64,000 nt of DNA from Escallonia rubra (Eukaryota; Streptophyta; Magnoliopsida; Escalloniales; Escalloniaceae). Each line of letters starts with the position of its first letter. The stretch's first letter is position 1. Below, piece by piece: positions 22,207 through 39,381 of the stretch. Below the pieces are notes generated by a model. The model was not told the origin of the DNA. It saw only the letters and a list, made by a program, of their open reading frames with translations, and did no database searches. The stretch is from positions 1 to 64,000 of the forward strand of contig JAVXUO010002484.1 in NCBI GenBank assembly GCA_033065855.1, given 5' to 3'. The position numbers and the translations under genes are program-made.

Positions 22207-23004
22207 TTCATTGTGCTGCACCTTTTTTTTTTTTTTGAGAAACAAGAGAAATTTGTTTAACTAAGCAATCGTTTGAGTCACACAACGTGGGGTGACTCTC
22301 CCATTACTATCAAAATACAGGTTTGGTGACAAAAAGATCGGCGCATGTTCCCATAGCTGGAAATCAGTACACTGATCCACCGTCTGTCTATTTAGCCATA
22401 TAATCCGCACAAAAGTTTGTTTCCCGGAACCCATGGAAAATAGAAACATGCCAGGATCGCTTAAAGAGTGCCCTGCAGTCCATAATCAAAGTTTCCATTA
22501 GAGGGGGAGGGGGTTTATCAGAATTAAGCATTTCAACTACATTCATGTTGTCAACTTCTAAAAGAAATTGTCGGCATTCCATCTCCCATGCAAGAGCAAG
22601 GCCGTCGCGGACTGCCCACCATTCCGCCGAAAGGCTATCAGTGTAGTGTAAGCGGCGAGAACAACCCTTTACCCAAGACCCATCGTGGTCTCTAATAATA
22701 GCGGCAGCACCGCCGTTAGCACGAGCTGGGTTTGTGCTTCCGTCCGTATTAATCTTAAGCCATTGAGGAGGAGGGGGCTTCCACCCTACAGTGATCATGG
22801 TTCGAGGAGTAGTCTTAAGGTTCAGGTTTTTGCAGAAGATGTAGTCACGTGCCTGGGTGTTTGCCTCATGAATAATAGTTTGCGAGTTAGGGAACTTCTT
22901 CTTGAGGATAACTAGCTGGTTCCTATGGTGCCATATGTTCGACAGAAGGAAAGCGAACGTCGTGTTCCAAGGAAATCGAACGTCGTGTTCATTGTGCTGC
23001 ACCT
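22207..23004. repeat. 17-bp target-site duplication flanking the LINE tail
   Basis: TTCATTGTGCTGCACCT occurs at 22207-22223 and again at 22988-23004, directly bordering the LINE fragment on both sides. The length is typical of target-primed reverse transcription. Confidence 0.9.
22224..22987 (-). mobile_element. 5'-truncated LINE with RNase H domain
   Basis: On the minus strand the insert reads from 22987 down to a poly-A tail (about 14 A) at 22237-22224. The open frame ends with TAG near 22392. It carries the plant RVT_3/RNase H-like domain that closes many plant L1-type ORF2 proteins: WLKINTDGS, GGAAAIIRD, SAEWWAVRDGL and the C-terminal ETNFCADYMAK (normally HxxN/xxADxLA). The reverse transcriptase and endonuclease parts are absent, so the copy is dead on arrival. 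A 15-base word CGAACGTCGTGTTCC near its 5' end is repeated 22 bases further on, a common kind of 5'-junction filler. Confidence 0.85.
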
Positions 23005-24034
23005 GCATTGCTTGTACGCGGTAGCAAGTAGTTTTAGAGTCCCTTGCACGACGAGTAGCGGATTACAGTGAAGAGTGGCAAAAGGTGGAGATCGACAAAA
23101 GAAAAACTAAATTATTAATTGACGACTTAAACTGCCACCACCATTCTTGTCCAATACAATTATTAGTTGATTACTTTCACATTAACGTGGGTAGTAGATT
23201 GTGCTGCAAAGAGATCCCATGTACAGAGAGTCATATGCTCTTGCGTTTGTTGTACCTTCCGCTGCATTAAATTTGCTTGAATCACGTTGTTATTGACAAC
23301 ATGAATACTCTCGATTTTGACAAGAGTGACAAAAAATCGAGTATTCCTTTCACTCCCAATGTAGTAAACAGTACGTAGCAGGCAGTGCAAGACTTCTAGT
23401 CGAGCTAGACAAGTTGATCCATTGTAAATTTTAGCAAGCTGAGTCAGTTTAGTCTCTGATAACTTTGGAGCAACCGAGATTTGATTACGAGCGAGCACAA
23501 TCTTTCAGATAGGAGTTTCGTAGGGCAGAGAAAGGAAAGCTGATTCATAGACTCTTGATGTGTTGGCACAACACACATCTGTCAATGGTGATGATTCCTC
23601 GTATTTTCGATATATTCTTAGTTCTCGGCTTTTCATGGCATACTATCGAAGCACTAAAGCTATTCGAGGAGTCGTGTTCTTCCATATGGGCTTGCACCAA
23701 GGGGTTGCGGTTCTTCTTTTTCCTTTTGGCATATTGTCTTGAGCTGTGGAGGGTTTCGCATTAACCCACCCTAATTTAATTTCTAACACAAGTTATGTGG
23801 TTGGAAAGTGAAAACAACTTACTTCAATTGAAAAATGACTGAAATTGTAGCTGATCACAAAGTCTAATTATAAACAGGAAAATAACCACCATGTTATTAT
23901 TACTGTGTAGATCGAGGTTTAATTCCTAAAACCAAAAGTTCACTGCAACCAGACAAATCACCTCTCCAGACCAACGTGCAGAAGCAAGATCCATGGTGAG
24001 GCCTTATTAGGGGAAACCAGATTATTTCAGTACT
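23005..24034. other. Spacer and 3' flank of protease copy A
   Basis: No gene found. The last roughly 30 bases before 24035 resemble the 3' flank of protease copy B (GGAARYCAxRTTATTTCxx...AAACAAYTGG), so this is the old 3' UTR side of the split gene. Confidence 0.45.
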
Positions 24035-24091
24035 TCAAACAACTGGATAACAAGCTTCCATGGCAATGCCACAGAGGCCTTCCTTGGCAGC
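24035..24091 (-). pseudogene. C-terminal piece of cysteine protease copy A
   Basis: On the minus strand this encodes AAKEGLCGIAMEACYPVV and a TGA stop at 24037-24035. It matches residue for residue (one exchange in EASYPIV) the end of intact copy B at 38148. It was cut from the rest of its exon by the retrotransposon at 24092-35129. The last five bases, GCAGC (24087-24091), are the target duplication. Confidence 0.93.
24087..24091. repeat. Target-site duplication, left copy
   Basis: GCAGC directly before the 5' LTR; the same five bases follow the 3' LTR at 35130-35134. Five bases is the usual length for Ty3/gypsy integrases. Confidence 0.93.
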
Positions 24092-24533
24092 TGATATAGC
24101 TAAAAATACCCCTCCAATCTACGGACGACACGTGGCGGTCATGACGAGTAACCCGTACCGACTCACTACCGATATGGCACTTACCATATCGGTCATCAGA
24201 CAGAATCCTAAAAAGACTCTGACTCTATCAGCTCAGATTGACATAAGGATCTTCTAAGATCCTAATTGGATTCTGATTAGAGTTGGTCAAAGCTCAGTCT
24301 CACTAGGATTCCACCTCCTACCACTATATAAAGGGGTCATACCCCTCAGGTAAACCTAAGCTCACACATATACACATTGTGTCTTTACTGCTTCTTCAGA
24401 GTTCTACATCGTTAGCCTTCTCTGACTTAAGCATCGGAGCGTTCCGCCGGAACCCCACCCGGCGGTAACTCCGTGTTCTCTTTTGCAGGCCTGATTTCTG
24501 GTGCTGTTCCCGATCCAGTTTTTAGCCGCAACA
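24092..24533 (+). repeat. 5' LTR
   Basis: 442 bases, TG...CA bounded. By my base-by-base comparison it is identical to the 3' LTR except for a 2-base deletion (GTTCCGCCGG here, GTTCCCCGCCGG there). It contains a TATA box and a short palindromic pair, AAGGATCTTCTAAGATCCT. Confidence 0.95.
24325..24332 (+). promoter_or_regulatory. TATA box of the LTR promoter
   Basis: TATATAAA followed by GGGG, in the middle of the 5' LTR; an identical copy is at 34919-34926 in the 3' LTR. It marks the likely U3/R boundary region for the genomic transcript. Confidence 0.8.
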
Positions 24534-24536
24534 GAT

Positions 24537-24554
24537 TGGCGCCATCCGTGGGAC
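24537..24554 (+). other. Primer-binding site
   Basis: TGGCGCCATCCGTGGGAC begins three bases after the LTR. TGGCGCC-type sites complement the 3' end of a host tRNA ending GGCGCCA. I do not assign the exact tRNA. Confidence 0.75.
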
Positions 24555-24566
24555 CCTACAGGGAAC

Positions 24567-26003
24567 ATGGCTAACCACTCTTCTTCCGATGACTCTTCAC
24601 AGAATCATCATGCACGAACTGACGACTCTCATCGACCAGGTCATTCTCATGATCAGCGCTCGACCCCTCTGCGTCGTCGTCACACCAGTTCTTCCGAAGA
24701 TAATTACGTCAACGTAACATCTGCTACTCCCGAATCAGAAGCTAGACCCCGGAGAAACAAATCTCCAACGTCTACTCTGAAAAACGGTGACCTTCGCCAT
24801 CGCTTGAACCGTCAGCTGTTCAAAACACCACATGATAACCTTACCAAGGAAATCCACGAACTGAAGGATGTTGTAAACACTCTTCAACAAAAGCTGGACA
24901 GGGTGGCGGCTCCACAGTCCACTCACCATTCCCATCTTGATCCTAGCGACCTTCGTCTTCGCCTCACCTCCAGATCAAGCTACGGCCGCAAGTATCAATC
25001 AACGGCCGATCCAACTTATGATCCCAGAGTTAAAAACGGAGATCATAGGACCAGGAGTGGATCATGCTATCGACGGGATCCATCAGTCAAAGGAAGTACC
25101 AACTCCTCTCCCAGACGAGTCGCCCGAGCTGAAACCCCTCGAAGATCTGTCCACAGGAAGGCGACGCCTGAGTATCGTTCCCAAGAACGAGATCCCTGGA
25201 AGGTGGTATCAAGATATCGTTCCCCAGAACGATCTCTCCCAAGGGACGAATCTGGATATCCTTTGTCCGACGCGATTGAGAAAGCTAAGTTACCTCCAAA
25301 CTTTCGAATGCCTCAATGTGACCATTACGACGGGACTGGAGATCCAGGAGAACATGTGTATCAATTTGAAACCAACATGCTACTCCTCCAAGTTTCAGAT
25401 GCCGTCATGTGTAGAGCTTTTCCCACTACTCTCAGAAAAGCCGCGCATGCATGGTTTAAGTCTCTTCAACCAAGATCCGTCCACTCCTTTAGCCAATTAT
25501 CGGATCTCTTCCAAAAACACTTTGTAATTACTCGCTCCATAAGGAAGAATTCGGCGAGTTTACTAAACATTGTGCAAGAGAAAAACGAGTCTTTGGCAGG
25601 CTTTGTCGGACGGTTCAATGCAGCAACTCTCGAGATCGATAATCTAGACGAGTCTGTGAAATACACCGCCTTTCTCCGCGGTCTTCGTCCGACATCCAAG
25701 TTTGCCTTCTCCGTAAACAAAAGTCCTCCAGGCAATATGAGAGCCCTACTTGAGAAGGCAAACAAATATATTCAAGCTGAAGAATACCTGGAAACTCACA
25801 GAGGGCGACATGGAGAAGAGAAGGAGGACAAGAAGAAAAGATCTCGAGAGATAACTCCTCAGGGGGAAAAAAATCTAAGCGTGAAGAACGAGGTCCGCGG
25901 AACCAGTTTGCTACAGAAAACTGGACGCCCCTCAATTCCAAGCCATCACAGATCCTCCATGAGATCAAAGACAGCCAATCTCTCCAGTGGCCGGACAAGT
26001 TGA
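24567..26003 (+). CDS. gag: Gag polyprotein (frame-interrupted)
   Basis: The ATG at 24567 opens a frame of 478 codons ending with TGA at 26001-26003. The first third is Arg/Ser-rich and low in complexity. The retrotransposon gag domain follows at about 25290-25800: AIEKAKLPPNFRMPQCDHYDG, AWFKSLQPRSVHSF and FVGRFNAATLEI, the usual capsid-like region. Past an A7 run at 25867-25873 the family-like sequence continues in the -1 frame, while the annotated gag frame yields about 40 unrelated residues. The zinc-knuckle-like CHFHKDHGHTTDNC therefore lies in the downstream frame. Either a -1 slip on the heptamer joins the two frames or this copy has lost or gained a base. Confidence 0.85.
   Translation: MANHSSSDDSSQNHHARTDDSHRPGHSHDQRSTPLRRRHTSSSEDNYVNVTSATPESEARPRRNKSPTSTLKNGDLRHRLNRQLFKTPHDNLTKEIHELKDVVNTLQQKLDRVAAPQSTHHSHLDPSDLRLRLTSRSSYGRKYQSTADPTYDPRVKNGDHRTRSGSCYRRDPSVKGSTNSSPRRVARAETPRRSVHRKATPEYRSQERDPWKVVSRYRSPERSLPRDESGYPLSDAIEKAKLPPNFRMPQCDHYDGTGDPGEHVYQFETNMLLLQVSDAVMCRAFPTTLRKAAHAWFKSLQPRSVHSFSQLSDLFQKHFVITRSIRKNSASLLNIVQEKNESLAGFVGRFNAATLEIDNLDESVKYTAFLRGLRPTSKFAFSVNKSPPGNMRALLEKANKYIQAEEYLETHRGRHGEEKEDKKKRSREITPQGEKNLSVKNEVRGTSLLQKTGRPSIPSHHRSSMRSKTANLSSGRTS
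25867..25873 (+). promoter_or_regulatory. A7 slippery run at the gag/pol frame change
   Basis: AAAAAAA preceded by GGGGG. The upstream gag frame and the downstream pol frame both give family-like protein when the switch is placed exactly here (-1). AAAAAAA fits the X XXY YYZ pattern of -1 frameshift sites. A one-base homopolymer error in the sequence is the main alternative. Confidence 0.55.
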
Positions 26004-29000
26004 GATCCCGACCGAATAAAAGAAACAAGGATTTATGGTGTCACTTCCACAAAGATCATGGCCACACAACCGATAATTGCGGGACACTTAAAGCAGCAAT
26101 TGAAGCTCTTATCAAGCGTGGCCAATTGAAAAAGTTCATAGCTCCAAGAGAAGGTCGACAGCAAACCCCACCGGTAGAAGAAAACAGAGCCGATCGAGAA
26201 GAGAATGCGGGTATAATCAACACTATATCTGGAGGTTTAGCCGCAGGAGGCTCATCAGGACAAGCTCGGAAAGCATATGCCAGAGAAGTGTGCATAACAA
26301 GTCACCCCCCAAATAAGAAACATAAGTCAATACCCGCACCGGTGATAACCTTCTCCGATGAAGATTTAAAGGAGGTAAAGACCCCTCACGACGATCCGTT
26401 AGTCATCACGATAAAGGCAGGAAATTTCGATGTGAAACGTGTCTTGGTCGATAACGGAAGCTCCGCAGAAGTCTTGTTTTACGACGCGTTCAAGAAGATG
26501 AACATACCAACGGACCGTCTCCGAAAGATGGATACACCGTTGTATGGATTTTCCAATCATCCAGTTGCAGTCGAAGGAATTATCACGCTCCCGGTTACAC
26601 TCGGCACACCTCCGACACAAGCCAACTTCATGCTCGATTTTGTGGTGGTAAAGGTCCCCTCAGCATACAACGCAATATTGGGACGACCAGCACTCAATCA
26701 GTTTCAAGCTGTAGTGTCAACTTATCACCTCAAAATGAAATTCCCCACGGAGCAAGGGATTGGAGAGGTCAAAGGCGACCAAACTACAGCTCGTCAGTGC
26801 TACGTAACTTCATGCCGATCAAAAAGCAAAGAAGCACTCATTATAGAAGACCTTCGGGAAGATACAAAGATACAAAGGGGAGAACCTGTTGAAGACCTTA
26901 TCAGCATCGAAGTATATCCCGGAGAAGAAAGCAAGACAGTTCGGATTGGTTCAAATCTTAAGGAAAACACCAAACTCGAGTTGGTGAACCTGCTAAGAAC
27001 CTATGCGGACATCTTCGCATGGACAGCTGCAGATATGCCGGGGATTGATCCTGAAGTTATTACCCATAGGCTGAATGTTGATCCATTCAAAAAACCTGTC
27101 AAGCAGAAGAAAAGGACTTTTGCGCCAGAGAGACAAGAAAAGATTGAAGGAGAAGTAGATAAACTCCTAACGGCCAACTTCATTGAAGAGGTCCACTACC
27201 CAGATTGGATTGCCAACGTAGTCATGGTTCCTAAATCAGGCGAGAGATGGCGAATATGTATCGATTACACGGATCTCAACAAAGCGTGCCCGAAGGATAG
27301 CTACCCGCTCCCAAGAATAGATCTTCTTATCGATTCTACGTCGGGCCATGAACTGCTTAGTTTCATGGACGCATATTCTGGTTATAACCAGATTATGATG
27401 CACAAAGACGACGTCTCCAAAACTTCGTTCATCACAGAGAGAGGATTATACTGCTACAAAGTGATGCCCTTTGGACTCAAGAATGCCGGAGCAACGTACC
27501 AGCGTCTGGTGAACATGATATTTCGAGACTTGATTGGGAAGAACATGGAAGTTTATGTCGACGATATGCTCGTCAAAAGCATAAAATCTGAATTCCATGC
27601 CAAAGACTTGAAAGAAACTTTTGACATCCTTCGAAAGTATAGAATGAAGCTAAATCCACTCAAGTGCGCTTTCGGAGTCGCATCAGGAAAGTTTTTGGGA
27701 TTTATAGTTTCTCAACGGGGGATCGAAGCGAACCCAGAGAAGATCCAAGCTATCCAAAGCATGACGTCCCCAAAAACAGTCAAGCAAGTACAAGAGTTGA
27801 CAGGAAGGGTTGCAGCCTTGGGAAGGTTCATGGCCCGATCAGCTGAACGGTGCTTGCCATTCTTCAAAGCCATCAGAAGAGCAAAAAGTTTTACTTGGAC
27901 AGACGACTGCCAGGAGTCGTTTGAGGAACTCAAGACTTATTTAAGTTCTCCACCCCTACTGTCAAAACCACTTTCAGGTGAAGACTTATTCCTAAACCTT
28001 TCAGTCACAGACGTCGCAGTCAGTACTGTTTTAATTAAAGAGGAAGATGGAGTTCAGAAACCCATCTACTACATTAGCAAAGTCTTGCAAGATGTAGAGA
28101 CCAGATACCTAAAGATCGACAAGATCGCACTAGCCCTTATCATATCGGCCAGGCGTCTTCGACCATACTTCCAGTCTCATACTATTATTGTACTGACAGA
28201 CCAACCACTTAGAAAAGTTTTACTGAGCCCAGAGGCTTCAGGAAGACTAGTCAATTGGTCCGTAGAGTTGGGTGAATTCGACATCCAATACCAGCCTCGC
28301 ACGGCAATCAAAGCTCAAGCCTTGGCAGACTTCATTGTAGAGTGTACACTGCCTGAAGACCCTCCTCAATTACTAATTTCCGAAGTTTCGGATCCCTGGA
28401 ATCTTTATGTAGATGGTTCTTCAGCTATTGGCAGTAGCGGAGCGGGGATTATTCTTATAAGTCCAGAAGGATTTACCATCGAATACGCACTTCGCTTCGG
28501 CTTCCAAGCCTCGAATAACGAAGCAGAGTATGAGGCCCTTCTTGCGGGGATAAGGTTAGCACACGCCTTAAAGGTGGACTCCTTATCAGTTCACAGTGAT
28601 TCCCAACTGGTGGTCAATCACGTCTTGGGAGATTATGAAGCCAGAGATGAAAGAATGGCTCAATATCTCGACTTAGTTAAAACAACAGCGGTGAAGTTTC
28701 AAAACTTCACCATTCGCCAGATTCCAAGGGATCAGAATGCTCAGGCAGATGCATTATCAAGGCTCGCTTCCATTGAAGAAATTGATGTCCGACGACCGGT
28801 CTACCTTGAGTTCCTCAAAGACCGCAGTATCGGTTCTCAAGCTAACATTGAAGTAATAGATCAAGAACCTTGCTGGATGGACACAATCATGAAATACCTG
28901 TCCACAGGCGAATTACCAAGTACAAGACGCGAGGCCAGAAATCTTCGTATCAAAGCTGCGCGATACGCCATAGTGGAAGGTACTTTATACAAGAAATCGT

Positions 29001-30109
29001 TCAGCCTTCCATACCTCAGATGCCTGCGTCCATCAGAATCCCTCTACGCATTACAAGAAGTTCATGAAGGGATATGTGGCCAACATCTTGGAGGAAGAAC
29101 ATTAGCACAGAAAATCCTAAGACAAGGATATTACTGGCCTACGATGCAGAAGGATGCGATCGACTTCACACGAAGATGCGATAGATGTCAGAGGTTCGCA
29201 CCGGTCTCTCACACACCGGTTGCTCCTTTAACTGCGATTGTTTCTCCCATCCCTTTTGCTATATGGGGAATGGATCTCCTGGGACCTTTTCCCATGGCGT
29301 CCGGACAACGACGATTTGTGATTGTAGCGATAGACTACTTCACCAAGTGGACCGAAGCAGAATCTCTGGCTACCATTACTTCAGCCAAATGTGAGGACTT
29401 TTTTTGGAAAAATGTCGTCTGCCGTTTCGGAGTGCCAAGAGCTTTGGTGGTTGATAACGGAAAACAGTTTGACAACAGCAATTTCCGAAGCTTTTGTGCG
29501 AATCTTTCAATTGATTTGAGATTCACTTCTGTAGCTCATCCACAGTCCAATGGTCAGACTGAAAACATGAATCGAAACATCTTGCAAGGATTGAAAAAAA
29601 AGCTAGATGATGCTAAAGGAGCATGGGTAGACGAACTCCCCAAAGTGCTATGGGCTTATCGAACAACCCCACACTCAGTTACCGGAGAAACACCTTTCTT
29701 ACTCTGCTACGGAACGGAAGCAATGTTACCAGTCGAGATAGGAGTTCCAACAATACGGGCCTTACACTTCAACGAATTAAGTAACGAAGATGGACTCCGA
29801 GCAAATCTTGATTTGGTAGATGAAGCTCGAATTCAAGCCCATGCACGATCTGTCGTCATAAAACAACGAGTGGCACGATATTACAATCGGAGAGTCCGAT
29901 CCAAACAGTTCAGCGACGGAGATCTGGTCCTTCGCAAACTAGAAGTTTCGGATCCAAAAGCAGCGACGGGAAAGTTATCTCCAAACTGGGAAGGACCCTA
30001 CCGTGTTATAAAGGTGCTCAAACCGGGCGCCTACGCACTAGGGAAACTTTCTGGAGAACCCATCCCTCGTACTTGGAATGCTGAGAACCTGCGCAGATAT
30101 TACCAGTAG
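26000..30109 (+). CDS. pol: Pol polyprotein: protease, RT, RNase H, aRNase H, integrase
   Basis: A stop-free frame of 1369 codons (counted from 26000, which is not an ATG; the frame is open upstream to the A7 run). It begins with the C..H.....H....C knuckle-like CHFHKDHGHTTDNC. Aspartic protease: VDNGSSAEVLF near residue 150. Reverse transcriptase with YVDDMLV near 519. A first RNase H around 664-750 (LNLSVTDVAVSTVLI, where the usual first Asp lies in VTD). A second, archaeal-type RNase H from about 801 (LYVDGSS, NNEAEYEALL, HSDSQLVVN, ADALSRLAS). The integrase has an HHCC finger (HEGICGQH...CDRCQRF) and catalytic D-D-E near 1092, 1152 and 1188, with 35 residues between the last two. No internal stop is present, consistent with a young, perhaps active copy. 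Confidence 0.95.
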   Translation: MRSRPNKRNKDLWCHFHKDHGHTTDNCGTLKAAIEALIKRGQLKKFIAPREGRQQTPPVEENRADREENAGIINTISGGLAAGGSSGQARKAYAREVCITSHPPNKKHKSIPAPVITFSDEDLKEVKTPHDDPLVITIKAGNFDVKRVLVDNGSSAEVLFYDAFKKMNIPTDRLRKMDTPLYGFSNHPVAVEGIITLPVTLGTPPTQANFMLDFVVVKVPSAYNAILGRPALNQFQAVVSTYHLKMKFPTEQGIGEVKGDQTTARQCYVTSCRSKSKEALIIEDLREDTKIQRGEPVEDLISIEVYPGEESKTVRIGSNLKENTKLELVNLLRTYADIFAWTAADMPGIDPEVITHRLNVDPFKKPVKQKKRTFAPERQEKIEGEVDKLLTANFIEEVHYPDWIANVVMVPKSGERWRICIDYTDLNKACPKDSYPLPRIDLLIDSTSGHELLSFMDAYSGYNQIMMHKDDVSKTSFITERGLYCYKVMPFGLKNAGATYQRLVNMIFRDLIGKNMEVYVDDMLVKSIKSEFHAKDLKETFDILRKYRMKLNPLKCAFGVASGKFLGFIVSQRGIEANPEKIQAIQSMTSPKTVKQVQELTGRVAALGRFMARSAERCLPFFKAIRRAKSFTWTDDCQESFEELKTYLSSPPLLSKPLSGEDLFLNLSVTDVAVSTVLIKEEDGVQKPIYYISKVLQDVETRYLKIDKIALALIISARRLRPYFQSHTIIVLTDQPLRKVLLSPEASGRLVNWSVELGEFDIQYQPRTAIKAQALADFIVECTLPEDPPQLLISEVSDPWNLYVDGSSAIGSSGAGIILISPEGFTIEYALRFGFQASNNEAEYEALLAGIRLAHALKVDSLSVHSDSQLVVNHVLGDYEARDERMAQYLDLVKTTAVKFQNFTIRQIPRDQNAQADALSRLASIEEIDVRRPVYLEFLKDRSIGSQANIEVIDQEPCWMDTIMKYLSTGELPSTRREARNLRIKAARYAIVEGTLYKKSFSLPYLRCLRPSESLYALQEVHEGICGQHLGGRTLAQKILRQGYYWPTMQKDAIDFTRRCDRCQRFAPVSHTPVAPLTAIVSPIPFAIWGMDLLGPFPMASGQRRFVIVAIDYFTKWTEAESLATITSAKCEDFFWKNVVCRFGVPRALVVDNGKQFDNSNFRSFCANLSIDLRFTSVAHPQSNGQTENMNRNILQGLKKKLDDAKGAWVDELPKVLWAYRTTPHSVTGETPFLLCYGTEAMLPVEIGVPTIRALHFNELSNEDGLRANLDLVDEARIQAHARSVVIKQRVARYYNRRVRSKQFSDGDLVLRKLEVSDPKAATGKLSPNWEGPYRVIKVLKPGAYALGKLSGEPIPRTWNAENLRRYYQ

Positions 30110-30298
30110 TGTCTCGACAGGAGCCAAAACACTTCCTTTTTGGGGTCATAAGGGGCACAGACCTTATCAGAACTCCAACATCTTAAAAATAATCTTGAGC
30201 AGATTGTTTCGAATAAATGGGTTGTTAAGCAATCCAATGTAAACTTTATTTTCTACTCTATTAATAAAGTTATTCTTTCTCAGTATTGTTGTAATAGA
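30110..30298 (+). other. Spacer after pol
   Basis: Short untranslated stretch after the pol stop, with AATAAATGG and TTAATAAAG words near 30212-30268 that could act as polyadenylation signals. No gene. Confidence 0.4.
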
Positions 30299-30755
30299 AG
30301 CTTAGCCAAAACATTCTGTCCGAACAGAGTGACGGCCGAACACTCTGCCCGAACAGAGTGGCAAGCTTAGCCAAAACATTCTGTCCGAACAGAGTGATGG
30401 TCGAACACTCTGCCCGAGCAGAGTGACAAGCATAGCCAAAACATTCTGTCCGAACAGAATGACGGCCGAACACTCTGCCCGAGCAGAGTGACAAGCATAG
30501 CCAAAACATTCTGTCCGAACAGAATGATGGCCGAACACTCTGCCCGAGCAGAGTGACAAGCATAGCCAAAACATTTTGTCCGAACAGAATGACGGCCGAA
30601 CACTCTGCCCGAGCAGAGTGACAAGCTTAGCTAAAAACATTCTGTTTAAACAGAGTGATGGCCGAGCACTCTGCTCGAACAGAGTAAGAGATTTAAAACC
30701 AAAACATTCTGTTTAAAACAGAGTGATGGCCGAGCACTCTGCCTGAACGGAGTGT
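30299..30755. repeat. Tandem array 1 of the retrotransposon, 64-65-bp units
   Basis: About seven units start at 30299, 30363, 30428, 30493, 30558 and 30623, with two degenerate ones to 30755. Each unit holds two hairpin-forming words, CATTCTGTCCGAACAGAATG-like and CACTCTGCCCGAACAGAGTG-like, joined by GACGGCCGAA. The units drift most at the right end. Hypervariable tandem repeats in the 3' region are known for Tat-lineage elements. Confidence 0.93.
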
Positions 30756-31109
30756 ATAACTCTTGAGTTTTCAAAATACAAGAGAAGCCAGGCGGATTAG
30801 CTACAGATCTAAGTCCGTGAAGAAACAAAAGTTAATGGGGGCATCGTCACTCCACCAAAACTTTTGTATCTTCGAAATATAAGCCAAGCGAGAGTGCTTG
30901 ACCTCTTTGCCGACTCTTTAAGTGACGATTAAAGGGTTTGAGTCAAAGTAAAAGCAAATAATACTGTGTGAATGGTAAAACACAAAACCATGACAAACAC
31001 ATAGTAAAAGTTAAAAATGCTGGTGCGTTAAAGATAAGAGTTTTACATAGAAGCCCTTAAGAGGGCAGTGAAAACTTGTCTCAGCAAAATAAAGAGGCTA
31101 GCTACAAGT

Positions 31110-33116
31110 CTAAGCCTCAGGGGCATCACAAGAAGGACCTTCGCCTGGAAGATCAGAAGCTGCGACATCTCCCGCCTCTGGAGGCATAACAGTCTCCCCA
31201 GATGGTGACCCAACCGCAGGCAGAACGAAACCATCCAAGGGGATATCAGGAAAGCGATCAGCAAACATCTCCTTGGCCTTCACAAAGCCAAGCTCATAAA
31301 TCTCCAGACCGTCTTCGGTCCGCTTCTTCAGCCATTCATCCCCCGCGTTTCCCTCCAAGAAATCGCGAATGCCTTGGTCTCGAGCTTTGATCACCTCTTC
31401 TGCAGCCCTCTTCTTAACTCGATCCAGTTTCTTCTCCAGAGTCGCAATCCGATCGAGATGATCTTCCTCACGTTTGCTCAGCTCTTCAGCACGATGGGTG
31501 GCATCCTGTGCTTCCTTAACAGCTTCCCTTGTCAGCTGGGCCTCCTCGGCCGCCACCTGCCTTGCCATCTCGAAGCGAGAAAACATCTCTGATCCACTGG
31601 CGTACATCTAGAATGAAGATAAAGATCATCAGCTAAAAGAAACTGGAAAACATCTCCATATAACCTAGTTGAAGCAAAAGACGTTACCGTATAGACAGCC
31701 TGGGCAAAGGAGCAGGCAAAAGTCTCGTGGGTCTGATTCTGGAAAACCTCCTTGTCTCGAGGAAGAATTCCATGACGAAGATGCTGCTCCGAGATCTGAC
31801 TGTCCGGCATCCCGAGATCATCACGCCTAAGTGCCCACCGCGGCCTAAAGATAGGATCATCCTCAATAGAAACTTGATCAAGTATCTGGGGAGAGCGTTC
31901 TGAAGGAGTGACTCTAGTCCTCTTAGGAGCAGGAGGTAACTCCACACTTGGCTGCTTCTCCTTTCGTTTCCCCTTAGCCTTCTGAAGAACACCAAGGAAG
32001 CTTCCTTGCTGCGGCTTTCCACCACCACTTGCCATTTCTGCAATGAAGAAAGAAGTCAATACGGGAATAAATATTGAACACAAGTCTAATTCAATATCTC
32101 ATGCGAAACACACCTAAAGGAACGGTCTCAGCAGATGACACGCTAGGAATAGCAGGAAGAGGAGGAATCAGAAGACCAGCTGGAATGGGCTTTGGAGGTA
32201 TCATCTTCGCCCACTCCAATTGCTCTTCCGAAAGAGGCTCATCTATGCAAAGACCGCCTCGAAGTTTAATATGACTAAGTATGTGCTTAGTCAGACTATT
32301 GGGAGTAGGCTTGCCAGGATTTTCGAAATCCTTACAATAAGGGTTCCACACTTTGTCAAAAGGAAGGTCCCCCTTGTCCATTTGGCCAACGAAGAAGTAT
32401 CTCGAATGCCAACCTTTATTCGACTTCGGCCCTCCCTTCAGAAGTCGTTGCCTACTGTGAATATAATACCATCCTGGAGAGTTGGCAACTCCTTTGACAA
32501 AACAGACTTCAAAGAAGACTCTCATAAAATCGGTTACATCTGGTTTGTAACCTGAAGTCTGAACCAAATATATGAGACCAGCAAGCTTCCTCCAACCATT
32601 TGGAACAAGCTGCCCAGGAGCCATACGATAATGCTCAAAGAAACGAAGAGCGAAAGGGTGAAGAGGAAATCTATATCCAGACTTCACCTGCTCTTCGTAG
32701 ACACCTGTTTCAAATTTCGTGCCATAGTTTGCTGGTTCACCCAAACCAGGAAGACGAGCATACCAACCTTCGGGGAGAGGATATTCCCGAATCAAATCCT
32801 GCAAATCTTCAGTCGACATCTTACTAGACTTTTCGTCAGCAGTATACCAAGGCTTTGGATTAGCCTTTTCTTCGGCCTGATCCTTTACTTCTCCTAAAGG
32901 ATTCCCCCCAGATAAATATTGTGAAGGTTGTGAAGATGAAGGTGGTAATAGTTGTGAGGATGAAGGTTGGAATCGTCGAGAGAATAAAGGTTGGAACGGT
33001 TGAGAAGTTGAAGGTAGTGGGGGTTGTGGATTTGAAGTCCCAACTTCACTTCCTGAAGTTGCTACTCGTTCTGAACTCGAAGACGAACTACTACTCGAAG
33101 ACGAACTATCAGACAT
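31110..33116 (-). CDS. Antisense spliced ORF of the retrotransposon (gypsy-type transposon protein, PF04195-like)
   Basis: Exons 33116-32114, 32037-31688 and 31607-31110 join in frame, with clean donors (TTAG^GTGTG, TACG^GTAAC) and acceptors (TTGCAG^AAATGG, TTCTAG^ATGTAC), to give 616 residues. The N-terminus is Ser-rich (a 12-Ser run). A domain at about 85-320 resembles the plant family named putative gypsy type transposon (Transposase_28): IREYPLPEGWYARLPG, YRFPLHPFALRFFEHY, MAPGQLVPNGWRKLAG and GWYYIHSR. Exon 3 is a charged coiled coil (EEAQLTREAVKEAQDATHRA, LEKKLDRVKKR). Antisense ORFs in the 3' region are known from some Tat elements such as Grande; their function is unknown. The gene has its own TATA box and runs opposite to gag-pol. 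Confidence 0.85.
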
Positions 33117-33252
33117 GTTTTCTACTTCTACTGTAAATATGAGACTACAACAAACTTGATGTGCTGAACAGAAAGGGTAGAGGGAAAGACTTACTTGCAG
33201 AGAAATGAGCTCCCAAAAATTCGAGTGAAGGAAAAATGAAGTGGAAGTTCTC

Positions 33253-33259
33253 TTTTATA
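33253..33259 (-). promoter_or_regulatory. TATA box of the antisense ORF
   Basis: On the minus strand CTATAAAAG lies 137 bases before the antisense ATG, a normal plant core-promoter distance. It is inside the element and separate from the LTR promoter. Confidence 0.65.
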
Positions 33260-33399
33260 GAGAAACGCCAAATAACCGTTCTAGGGAAACGCAACGGTTC
33301 ATATGCCTGCAACGTGTCACAAGCTGAAGAGAGCAGAAACCTGAAAATTTTCAAAAGGATTCCCGCTCAAATCCTCGCACGTGACACATTGGAAACACC

Positions 33400-33968
33400 A
33401 AAGGATCGTGCCCGAGCAGAATCGTGTCCGAACACTCTGCCCGAACAGAGTGAACGTGGCCGAACAGAATCCTGCCCGAGCAGAATCGTGTCCGAACACT
33501 CTGCCCGAACAGAGTGAACGTGCCCGAACAGAATCGTGCCCGAGCAGAATCGTGTCCGAACACTCTGCCCGAACAGAGTGAACGTGTCCGAACAGAATCC
33601 TGCCCGAGCAGAATCGTGTCCGAACACTCTGCCCGAACAGAGTGAACGTGCCCGAACAGAATCGTGCCCGAGCAGAATCGTGTCCGAACACTCTGCCCGA
33701 ACAGAGTGAACGTGTCCGAACAGAATCGTGCCCGAGCAGAATCGTGTCCGAACATTCTGCCCGAACAGAGTGAACGTGGCCGAACAGAATTCTGCCCGAG
33801 CAGAATCGTGTCCGAACACTCTGCCCGAACAGAGTGAACGTATCCGAACAGAATCGTGCCCGAGCAGAATCGTGTCCGAACACTCTGTCCGAACAGAGTG
33901 AACGTGACCAAACAGAATCTTGCCCGAGCAGAATCGTGTCCGAACACTCTGCCCGAACAGAGTGAACG
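33400..33968. repeat. Tandem array 2a, 64-bp units
   Basis: About nine units of roughly 64 bases with the order CGTG(C/T)CCGA(A/G)CAGAATC, then GTGTCCGAACACTCTG, then CCCGAACAGAGTGAA. Each contains the 20-base hairpin word CACTCTGCCCGAACAGAGTG seen in array 1. Units differ at only a few positions, so the array is young. Confidence 0.93.
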
Positions 33969-34565
33969 TGGCCGAGCAGAAGTTTGTCCGAGCAGACTGC
34001 CCGAACAGAGAATGCTTGTCCGAACAGAAGTTTGTCCGAACAGATTGTCCGAACAGAATCTCGTCCGAGCAGAATTTCGTCCGAGCAGATGTACGGCCGA
34101 GCAGAAGTTTGTCCGAGCAGACTGCCCGAACAGAATGCTCGTCCGAACAGAATGCTTGTCCGAACAGAAGTTTGTCCGAACAGACTGCTCGAACAGAATC
34201 TCGTCCGAGCAGATTTACGGCCGAGCAGAATTCCGTCCGAGCATATTTATGTCCGAGCAGAATCTCGTCCGAGCAGAATATCGTCCGAACAGATTCATGT
34301 CCGAACAGACTACCCGAACAGAATCTGGTCCGAGCAGAATTCCGTCCGAGCAGATTTACGGCCGAACAGAATTCCGTCCGAGCAGATTTATGCCCGAGCA
34401 GAATCTCGTCCGAGCAGAATATCGTCCGAACAGATTCATGTCCGAACAGACTGCCCGAACAGAATCTAGTCCGAGCAGAATTCCGTCCGAGCAGATTTAC
34501 GGCCGAACAGAATTCCGTCCGAGCAGGTTCATGTCCGAACAGAATCTCGTCCGAGCAGAATACTC
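33969..34565. repeat. Tandem array 2b, short irregular units
   Basis: The 64-bp unit gives way to 16-24-base units built on TCCGA(A/G)CAGA followed by a variable word (ATCTCG, ATTCCG, TTTACGGC, TTCATG). Higher-order blocks of about 130 bases repeat (for example 34200-34330, 34330-34450 and 34450-34560). All six frames stay largely open simply because the repeat lacks stops. Confidence 0.9.
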
Positions 34566-34670
34566 TTTGAAATTTGGAAATATTGACAAACGGATTCAAT
34601 TCTGTTTTTGGCGTATTCCGCTATCACCAGTGGAAAAAGTGTGCTTCCACCCGCTTCATTAAAGCTGGTA

Positions 34671-34681
34671 AAAGCAAGGGG
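34671..34681 (+). other. Polypurine tract
   Basis: AAAGCAAGGGG lies four bases before the 3' LTR, the expected place for plus-strand priming. One pyrimidine interrupts it. Confidence 0.75.
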
Positions 34682-34685
34682 CATA

Positions 34686-35129
34686 TGATATAGCTAAAAA
34701 TACCCCTCCAATCTACGGACGACACGTGGCGGTCATGACGAGTAACCCGTACCGACTCACTACCGATATGGCACTTACCATATCGGTCATCAGACAGAAT
34801 CCTAAAAAGACTCTGACTCTATCAGCTCAGATTGACATAAGGATCTTCTAAGATCCTAATTGGATTCTGATTAGAGTTGGTCAAAGCTCAGTCTCACTAG
34901 GATTCCACCTCCTACCACTATATAAAGGGGTCATACCCCTCAGGTAAACCTAAGCTCACACATATACACATTGTGTCTTTACTGCTTCTTCAGAGTTCTA
35001 CATCGTTAGCCTTCTCTGACTTAAGCATCGGAGCGTTCCCCGCCGGAACCCCACCCGGCGGTAACTCCGTGTTCTCTTTTGCAGGCCTGATTTCTGGTGC
35101 TGTTCCCGATCCAGTTTTTAGCCGCAACA
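34686..35129 (+). repeat. 3' LTR
   Basis: 444 bases, identical to the 5' LTR but for the extra CC near 35038. It ends GCAACA and is followed by the GCAGC target duplication at 35130-35134. Confidence 0.95.
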
Positions 35130-36177
35130 GCAGCAACGTCCCTTTGCAGTCGCATGTATCCGTTCTCGCCCCAGCCAGTGCCCCACGAGTTCTTAAGCAA
35201 CCAGTACTTTGTACCAGTCTCGGTTCTACCATACCCTATTGCTGTAACAACGTGGTCTAGGACAGTACCACAATCACCCGAATAGACTCCGCTATCGTAA
35301 AACATTAACCTGTCAGCTTCAATGGCAACGGCGATGGATTGGTTAGCCACGGCCAATAACAGTGAAGACTCATTATTTGCAGGTACCATTTCATAACCTG
35401 TGATTTTAGCGACGTGGGAGCGTTCTTTCAGGACATTGCATTTTCCATCAGATGCCACATATGGGTAGGTGGACTCCTTGGTGAGGCCGCGGTTGTGTAT
35501 AATGAATTCAAGGGCAGTTTCTGTCTCTCCACCCTTGCAGCCATTATCCCAACCACCTGTGTCGCAGTCAACTATTTCTTGCTCCGATACTGAGATCAAG
35601 TGACCGGTTGTGAGCTGGTTGATTCCCTCCATAGCTCCAACTGCTGCGAATGCCCAGCAAGATCCTACAAAACAATTTGGCATGATATCGCATGCAGCTG
35701 ACAAAATTTAGTTAGGGAACACAACAAAATGCCTAGAACGACGGACACACTTTCGTACTTAATGGGAGTAACAGCTCCTTTTTTCCTCCAATCCATGGTC
35801 GCTGGAACGACGGTCACACTTTCGTACTTGAATGATGCCGTTTTAGATGACTTTGTATGGGAGGACTTCTTGTATCCGGTACGAGATGCTTTAAACTCCT
35901 CTTTAGTCATGTCCGCAAATTCATTGATACGTAGTGTATATGTGTGAGTCCCGACGTTGTTGAAAGACTCGATAGACTCCACATTGTCGCTAAATATTTT
36001 AAGACGCATCTCTTTCTCAACATCATCTTTGTATGCACGACCATGACGAACCGTCCATTGCTCATGTCTGGCTTTCATGGATGTGTCATGCAGAGCACGA
36101 GACGTGGTTAGGGAAACCCACATACCCAAAATCAATAGCGTTGCAAAAAATAGCTTAGGGAAGAGCGCCAACGCCAT
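35130..36177 (-). pseudogene. Papain-like cysteine protease copy A, main part (SAG39/SAG12-like)
   Basis: Minus strand. Exon 1 runs from the ATG at 36177 to about 35758: signal peptide, I29 inhibitor propeptide with ERFNIN-type spacing (HEQW...YKDD...IFSDNVESIESFN) and the mature start VPATMDWR. Exon 2 (35664-35130) has GSCWAF with the catalytic Cys, the His in LDHVVTAIGYG and the Asn in NSWGTGWGENGY. Two lesions: the DQGQCG stretch with the oxyanion-hole Gln and the splice donor is gone, replaced by a 28-base near-copy (35733-35760) of 35802-35829; and exon 2 is cut by the retrotransposon, its end lying at 24035-24091. It is a tandem paralogue of copy B at 38148. Confidence 0.92.
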
Positions 36178-38147: not shown

Positions 38148-39381
38148 TTAAACAATTGGATAAGATGCCTCCATAGCAATGCCACAGAGACCTTCCTTGG
38201 CAGCAACATCCCTTTCCAGTCGGAAGTATCCGTTCTCGCCCCACCCGATGCCCCACGAGTTCTTAAGTAACCAGAACTTTGTACCATTCGCGGTTGTTCC
38301 ATACCCTATTGCGGTAACAACGTGGTCCAAGTCAGTACCACAATCGCCCGAATAGACACCGCCTTCGTATAACATCAAATTGTCAGCTTCAATGGAAACA
38401 GCAATAGGTTGGTTAGCCACGGCCAACAGCAATGAAGACTCATTATTTGCTGGCACCATTTCATAACCCGTGATGTTAGCTACATGGGAGCGTTCTTTCG
38501 TGACATTGCACATTCCATCAATTGCCACATAGGGGTAAGTGCTTTCGTTAGAAAGGCCATGGTTGCGTATTATGTATTCAAAGGCAGTTTCTGCCTCTCC
38601 GCCCTCGCAGCCAAAGTCCTCCCCAGTTGTGTCACAATCCACTATTTCTTGTTCCGATAACGAGATCAATTTACCGGTTGTGAGCTGATTGATTCCTTCC
38701 ATAGCTCCAACGGCTGCAAAAGCCCAGCAAGATCCTACCAAAAAAAAGTTGAATGATTATATTTATGTTGGTGACAGTTCGAATATGCCTAGGAAATTCT
38801 CACGAAAGGAGAGAAAGCGGGTCAATTGATCAGCTAAACTAGCAAACTTGTTTCAGGGTGCATGGAAACAAAACTATATAGGATTTTTGCAAGTTATAGG
38901 GCAATGACCTAAGGATGATTCGAAAGAGTTGGTGTTATGTCTTACCGCATTGGCCCTGGTCCTTAATGGGAGTAACAGCTCCTTTCAACCTCCAATCCAT
39001 GGTCGTTGGAACGACGGTGACATTTTCATACTTAAAAGAGGCCAATTGAGATGACTTTGGATTGGATGACCTCTTGTATCCGGTGCGAGAGGCCTTGAAC
39101 TCCTCTTTAGTCATGTCCGCAAATTCGTTGACGTGCAGAGTGTAGGTATGAGTCCCAGCGTTATTGAAAGACTCGATATACTCCACATTGTCGTTGAATG
39201 TCTTGTAATGTATCAACTTCTCCACATCATCCTTGTACACGCGTCCATAGCGAACCATCCATTGCTCGTGTCTCTCTTTCAAGGCTACGTCATGCAATGC
39301 ACGAGACGTGGTTTGAGAAACCCACATCCCTAAAATCAACAATGTTGCTAAAAATACAGCCGAAGTGAGTGTGAAAGCCAT
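38148..39381 (-). CDS. Papain-like cysteine protease copy B (SAG39/SAG12-like), intact
   Basis: Exons 39381-38946 and 38734-38148 join in frame to 340 residues; the intron splits the Gly codon before the catalytic GSCWAF. C1A proteases of this type act in the vacuole or apoplast during senescence and defence. Signal peptide at 1-26; I29 propeptide with HEQW, YKDD, FNDNVEYIESFN and NEFADMTKEEF; maturation just before VPTTMDWR (about 124). Oxyanion Gln142 in DQGQCG, catalytic Cys148, His283 (LDHVVTAIGYG) and Asn304 (NSWGIGWGENGY) are all present. No C-terminal granulin or KDEL. It lies about 2 kb from the broken copy A on the same strand. The exact orthologue (SAG12 or SAG39) is not settled. 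Confidence 0.95.

Follow-up and report, generated by a model that had tools for sequence, protein, structure and literature searches.

The window, the whole stretch of 64,000 nucleotides of Escallonia rubra DNA analysed here, contains an LTR retrotransposon that very probably carries, on the strand opposite to gag-pol, a protein-coding gene of three exons joined by splicing. Comparisons with other copies of the element and with more distant relatives in the same genome supported the interpretation of this region as a spliced antisense gene with a TATA box, lying inside a Tat-lineage element. We have moderate confidence in the fuller explanation, in which the spliced antisense gene, expressed from its own promoter, encodes an accessory nuclear, oligomeric, DNA-binding regulator.

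The sequence-only reading had proposed three minus-strand exons joining in frame over two GT-AG introns to encode a protein of 616 residues, and its coordinates, frame and length were all recovered. The spliced coding sequence is 1851 nt long (616 codons plus the stop codon) and is composed as follows:

33116-32114, minus strand: exon 1, 1003 nt, encoding a serine-rich N-terminus and a PF04195 (Transposase_28) domain
32113-32038, minus strand: intron 1, 76 nt, GT-AG, phase 1
32037-31688, minus strand: exon 2, 350 nt, encoding a basic, NLS-like cluster (KGKRKEK...PKRTR)
31687-31608, minus strand: intron 2, 80 nt, GT-AG, phase 0
31607-31110, minus strand: exon 3, 498 nt including the TAG stop codon, encoding a coiled-coil-like helix and the C-terminus

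The PF04195-like domain claimed for the protein was detected by a profile match at residues 141-204 (E 3e-10; 40.6 bits, with the cut-off at 26.2), placing a PF04195 domain above cut-off on the strand opposite to pol, as in the antisense TRP28 gene of Retand elements. The claim of a coiled coil also held: a helix segment of exon 3, chosen by eye, displayed heptad periodicity (reached by 9 of 2000 shuffles), and is contained in a proline- and glycine-free stretch (residues 457-529) encoded mostly by exon 3. A comparison of exon 3 with NCBIfam yielded four weak matches, all far below the cut-off.

The host element and its parts are as follows:

24092-35129, gag-pol on the plus strand: LTR retrotransposon, with target-site duplication GCAGC
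24092-24533, plus strand: 5' LTR, TG..CA, 442 nt
24501-26003, plus strand: gag frame, Retrotrans_gag (PF03732), the mechanical ORF start lying inside the LTR
26000-30109, plus strand: pol ORF, with reverse transcriptase, RNase H, a second (RVT_3) RNase H and integrase
30298-30754, unstranded: 65-bp tandem array, past the 3' end of the antisense gene
33405-34560, unstranded: tandem arrays built of 64-bp and variant units, on the upstream side of the antisense promoter
34686-35129, plus strand: 3' LTR, 444 nt, with the target-site duplication GCAGC at 35130-35134

The assignment of this element to the Tat lineage was borne out by the second RNase H and by the long, repeat-containing region between pol and the 3' LTR. 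A domain search gave the pol order RVT_1, RT_RNaseH, RVT_3, Integrase_H2C2 and rve, which is that of Tat/Retand elements, and a dual RNase H is described as a feature of Tat elements (PMC9289625). The pol-to-3' LTR region (30110-34685) is 4.6 kb long and includes the tandem arrays, again as in Retand elements, for which a 2025 survey gives lengths of 2,933-6,566 bp (PMC11963269). The arrays flanking the antisense gene on both sides (30298-30754 and 33405-34560) consist of CGAACAG-type units, mostly of 64-65 bp. The sole difference between the two LTRs (442 and 444 nt) is a 2-nt indel. A papain-like cysteine protease gene (minus strand, 23701-24091 and 35130-35800) is split by the element within the final part of its coding sequence; when the flanks were joined in a script, a continuous protease frame ran across the site, restoring RDVAA-KEGLCGIAMEACYPVV-stop, which fixes the element boundaries exactly and suggests a recent insertion. 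An ORF resembling the interrupted protease lies at 38148-38741. These features identify the element as a young LTR retrotransposon of the Tat/Retand type. Outside the element, a separate ORF (22388-23008, minus strand) contains an RVT_3 RNase H domain (E 4e-23); we take this ORF to be a LINE remnant.

Two promoter elements precede the antisense gene:

33254-33259, minus strand: TATA box (TATAAA), in 40 of 40 copies
33378-33383, minus strand: G-box CACGTG, upstream of the antisense TATA box, with a CACGTG in this stretch in 40 of 40 copies

The TATA box that had been reported before the gene is therefore present in every aligned copy of the window family; in the window, its first base is 33259, 143 nt upstream of the ATG. 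Among the 30 more distant relatives described below, a TATA box was found 174-195 nt before the ATG in 29, and a CACGTG within 330 nt before the ATG in 23. The occurrence of both elements in all 40 copies is consistent with a promoter of the gene's own, of the type described for Grande gene23. A donor-like motif, AAGTAAG[TC], lies 46-61 nt before the ATG in 30 of 30 relatives and at 33197-33189 (minus strand) in the window, and may mark an intron in the 5' UTR or a promoter-proximal U1 site. As a candidate annotation, an intron in the 5' UTR (CAA/GTAAGT..TTTGCAG) was considered: its donor was found in 38 of 40 copies and could pair with TTTGCAG in the window family, but most of the relatives displayed had no fitting AG acceptor before the ATG. 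In one of the 40 copies (L010), a 74-bp promoter segment, the counterpart of window positions 33387-33314, is exactly inverted and bounded by GTGTCAC/GTGACAC; the gene downstream of the inversion is nearly identical to that of the window.

According to the mechanism that we propose, host Pol II would transcribe the antisense gene from its own promoter and the host spliceosome would join the three exons, so that splicing would confine the protein to the antisense transcript and make that transcript look like a host mRNA. Retrotransposition copies the introns unchanged, because the sense genomic RNA shows them as their complement. The protein would then enter the nucleus by means of the exon-2 basic cluster, oligomerise through the exon-3 coiled coil and bind DNA through its PF04195 region, for which DNA binding has been predicted (PMC11963269). 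Its action would serve the element family, the likeliest targets being transcription or the nuclear steps of the element cycle. Each of the 22 distinct open exon-2 sequences listed contains the KGKRKEK run; the basic cluster and the coiled coil are generic features, and the NLS reading is a prediction. A nuclear-regulator function is a plausible proposal that falls a little short of probable, and transcriptional regulation, import of the integration complex and anti-silencing are indistinguishable from the present data. The product might instead be a Gag-interacting or particle-borne accessory protein, such as a chaperone or an import factor for the integration complex, rather than a nuclear regulator. 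The combination of a coiled coil and a basic region would fit such a protein, and import-type roles have been proposed in a review (PMC7264820), but the predicted transcript is separate from gag-pol, and no Gag or Env family was matched by any domain of the antisense protein. Solved structures provided no match either, the search with exon 1 returning none and that with an 11-row profile returning three, with E values of 0.79-0.98, which were taken as chance. We consider a particle-borne role unlikely, but worth keeping in view alongside the nuclear regulator.

The constraint on the gene was assessed in copies of the window family obtained by a DNA search of the 566-Mb genome; 40 of 572 candidates were scored, and these 40, window included, were aligned, giving fractions biased toward young, intact copies. 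The splice dinucleotides were almost invariant (donor 1, GT in 40/40; acceptor 1, AG in 38/40; donor 2, GT in 40/40; acceptor 2, AG in 40/40), and the antisense ATG was present in all 40 copies. The full spliced frame of 616 codons was open in 23 copies and not in the other 17; such broken frames would be expected of old copies, though not of these alone. A net length change was found in an exon in three copies and in an intron in none. Nucleotide diversity, calculated without alignment columns holding fewer than 30 letters, was 0.027, 0.020 and 0.091 at codon positions 1, 2 and 3, respectively, and 0.085 and 0.124 in the two introns. The third-position excess fell in the predicted frame for each exon, and the introns were as variable as third codon positions and silent sites, or more so. 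Within the family, variable sites were found at one of eight splice-site positions and at 72 of 148 positions in the intron interiors (p = 0.068), which makes splice-site invariance at this level weak evidence for splicing; it is the comparison across families that carries the case.

The distribution of variants, with codons differing at more than one site left unclassified, agreed with the earlier claim that the open frames are under constraint. Variants shared by at least three copies comprised 135 synonymous, 49 nonsynonymous and no stop changes, against a neutral N/S of about 2.9 (2.85, from noncoding changes). The corresponding numbers were 53, 31 and 4 for variants in two copies and 114, 170 and 17 for those in a single copy. 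The N/S of the shared variants differed strongly from the neutral expectation (p ~5e-41) and from that of the singletons (p ~1e-12). Neutral codon evolution among copies had been named beforehand as evidence against the gene, and the opposite was seen; the pattern indicates source copies under purifying selection, with decay following insertion. The least constrained part of the protein is its first 90 residues (S:N 14:14). The strand opposite to pol was used in all 33 copies with a reverse transcriptase at the expected place (38 tried, of which five had none there and one a partial one; L037 was left out, as its contig ends too close). In the 34 copies compared, window included, RT-RH had 96 synonymous and 21 nonsynonymous changes and the antisense coding sequence 120 and 46. 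When the antisense coding sequence of these copies was read in shifted frames, N/S rose to 5.8 and 6.4, and the sense-strand frame sharing the silent position had an N/S of 0.57 with seven stop changes. These results bear on the possibility that the RNA is what matters, with antisense transcription regulating the element by double-stranded RNA or interference and the frame a mere passenger. Silencing in trans by antisense transcripts occurs in LTR elements, as in Ty1, and is discussed in a review (PMC7264820), but codon-level constraint was strong in all three exons and did not differ significantly from that acting on RT-RH (p = 0.065), making an RNA-only role improbable.

We then considered distant relatives of the gene. 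In a PF04195 search of the genome, 150 of 941 candidates were scored, all above the family cut-off, and the best 30 (L086-L115), which form five DNA clusters, were read. The exon-1 proteins of eight of them were 31-35% identical to that of the window. Intron 1 was found in 30 of 30 relatives at the site of the window's intron and in phase 1, with a length of 67-72 nt, GT in 30/30 and AG in 29/30. None of the 22 intron-1 indels, scored relative to the locus L093, was a multiple of three; 102 of the 131 exon indels scored in the same way were multiples of three and 29 were frame-breaking. Intron 2 was present in nine relatives belonging to four clusters (65-70 nt, phase 0, GT in 9/9, AG in 8/9) and exactly absent from the other 21, all of one cluster, in which the exons are joined with no base gained or lost. 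In the automatic alignment, compensating gaps fall around intron 2 of the window. When the window protein was slid along the joined L093 protein, zero offset gave the best ungapped register both before and after the intron, and the intron 2 sites of the window and L093 are therefore probably homologous. No copy lacking intron 2 was found in the window family with a joined 120-nt exon 2-3 query: among the 40 scored of 253 candidates, there were 80 half matches, none of them spanning the junction.

The precise absence of intron 2 may be regarded as a natural fossil of splicing, and thus as indirect evidence for it. As both the window family and four of the five clusters have the intron, loss in the fifth cluster is a simpler history than gain. 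In the exon-1 protein tree, the branch leading to the window family was long (2.0-3.5) and several supports were below 80, and the relatives are not reliably rooted. The absence is most easily explained by reverse transcription of a spliced antisense mRNA that recombined into the element. GT-AG introns, conserved in site and phase, a frame that is maintained only once the introns are removed, and codon constraint are together what would be expected of a coding gene processed by the spliceosome, and the gene appears to have had introns of the spliceosomal type at least since these families diverged.

The cluster lacking intron 2 is also informative about the protein. Eight of its 21 loci (L093-L100) have a single open frame of 650 residues, and L102 has one of 655. 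The L093 protein aligned with residues 69-568 of the spliced window protein (26% identity, E 8e-33), and exons 2 and 3 alone gave a weak match (E 4e-4). The L093 family has PF04195, the basic cluster and the coiled coil all within one frame, and the heptad periodicity of the matching segment was reached by 33 of 2000 shuffles. An ORF finder reports one ORF for L093 because its intron 1, which is kept, is 69 nt long and open in frame; this intron could be translated there instead of being spliced. In some closer relatives of L093, intron 1 is 67, 68 or 70 nt long, which breaks the frame. The open 69-nt intron of L093-L100 is possibly an intron drifting into coding sequence. The pol next to L093 lies on the strand opposite to the antisense gene and is 60% identical to that of the window, so the antisense protein, at 26% identity, has diverged much faster than pol.

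These comparisons speak against the exons being separate, unspliced antisense ORFs translated singly, with accidental GT/AG pairs. An ATG lies no more than two bases from the start of each of exons 2 and 3, the exon-2 ATG having a good context, and the 2025 survey counts 104 antisense ORFs for 63 clusters (PMC11963269), as separate ORFs would allow. Such ORFs would nevertheless have to account for an intron 2 that is exactly absent from one cluster and present in four others, for an intron 1 whose site and phase are kept in 30 of 30 relatives despite frame-breaking indels, for introns at least as variable as silent sites, and for the union of all three protein features in one frame in the L093 family. 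We consider separate translation very improbable, and retain the spliced gene.

An antisense ORF with PF04195 is a described hallmark of Retand elements, reported for 97% of recent clusters and for all but two of the 63 clusters surveyed (Vicient 2025, PMC11963269); in a previous survey, only 23% of Retand elements had the domain (PMC6317226). Those TRP28 ORFs resemble the window gene in lineage anatomy, location between pol and the 3' LTR, antisense orientation, PF04195 domain and adjoining tandem repeats (PMC11963269). The difference is that the window's ORF with PF04195 and its ORF with the coiled coil are predicted to belong, as exons, to one gene with two conserved introns. The survey was based on ORF Finder, and 72 of its antisense ORFs had a known domain, 57 of them PF04195 (PMC11963269), leaving by subtraction about 15 with only another domain (Smc and similar). 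In our reading, many of the remaining survey ORFs without PF04195 are further exons of the same gene. The word intron is absent from the text of the survey (PMC11963269), in which "spliced" occurs only in a reference title. Grande gene23 of maize likewise occupies the region between pol and the 3' LTR as an accessory gene in antisense orientation; it is transcribed from its own promoter, a feature predicted for the window gene, and encodes the nuclear protein GENE23 (Gomez-Orte 2013, as cited in PMC7264820). Expression and localisation were measured for gene23, whereas the window gene is known from sequence alone. The 2020 review, in the sections available, names no introns and calls for a search for antisense and spliced transcripts (PMC7264820). 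In gypsy elements of common bean, an antisense ORF2 occurs in 15 families (e.g. pvRetro13), described as single ORFs, unlike the three-exon gene of the window (PMC4093653). Ogre elements resemble the window element in having a spliceosomal intron within the Tat lineage, located between gag-pro and RT-RH-INT and partly spliced (PMC6317226). The Ogre intron is, however, in the sense orientation and in the element's own transcript, whereas those of the window lie antisense to gag-pol, where splicing of the genomic RNA does not see them. The portions available of the literature on bean ORF2, Ogre introns, host factors and sunflower or orchid elements describe no antisense introns. Judged by titles and the beginnings of abstracts, none of the papers listed reported introns in Retand antisense genes; Gomez-Orte 2013, Kejnovsky 2006 and Steinbauerova 2011 could contain an earlier report. 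The class of gene is already known; what is new here is its conserved structure of several exons, together with the fossil loss of an intron. A further analogue is HBZ of HTLV-1, which has a spliced form and a leucine zipper. It resembles the proposed protein in its way of working, as a nuclear regulator with a coiled coil produced from an antisense transcript, and no test performed here indicated relatedness. The nuclear role of HBZ is noted in the survey (PMC11963269), and its promoter lies in the 3' LTR (PMC7264820), unlike the upstream TATA/G-box region of the window gene.

The introns and the promoter-like region resemble those of a host gene, but recent capture of a functionless passenger by this one element is scarcely credible, being contradicted by the distribution of the gene, which is present in at least 40 copies of the window family and five other DNA clusters of this genome and, as antisense PF04195, in all but two of the 63 Retand clusters (PMC11963269), such that any capture must be ancient and the gene now kept by selection. 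It is possible, if somewhat doubtful, that a Retand ancestor took up a whole gene of host type in antisense orientation, that this gene later became an accessory gene of the lineage, and that one family re-copied the spliced mRNA, erasing intron 2. A complete gene with its promoter and introns would have been retained in this orientation because only the antisense position lets a retrotransposon keep it. Ancestral antisense capture, if true, would explain the orientation, the own promoter and the introns together, and would answer the published objection that genes acquired by capture usually run sense to gag-pol. The regulator and captured-gene readings are not mutually exclusive.

Our findings suggest that a known class of antisense ORFs, widespread in Retand elements, is one ordinary spliced gene. 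If so, ORF-based annotation fragments the protein, and studies of its domains have looked at partial proteins. The introns bear on the origin of the gene, and reads across their junctions would be an exact marker of its expression. Finally, the precise lack of an intron in one family suggests that the element's reverse transcriptase can gain access to the antisense mRNA.
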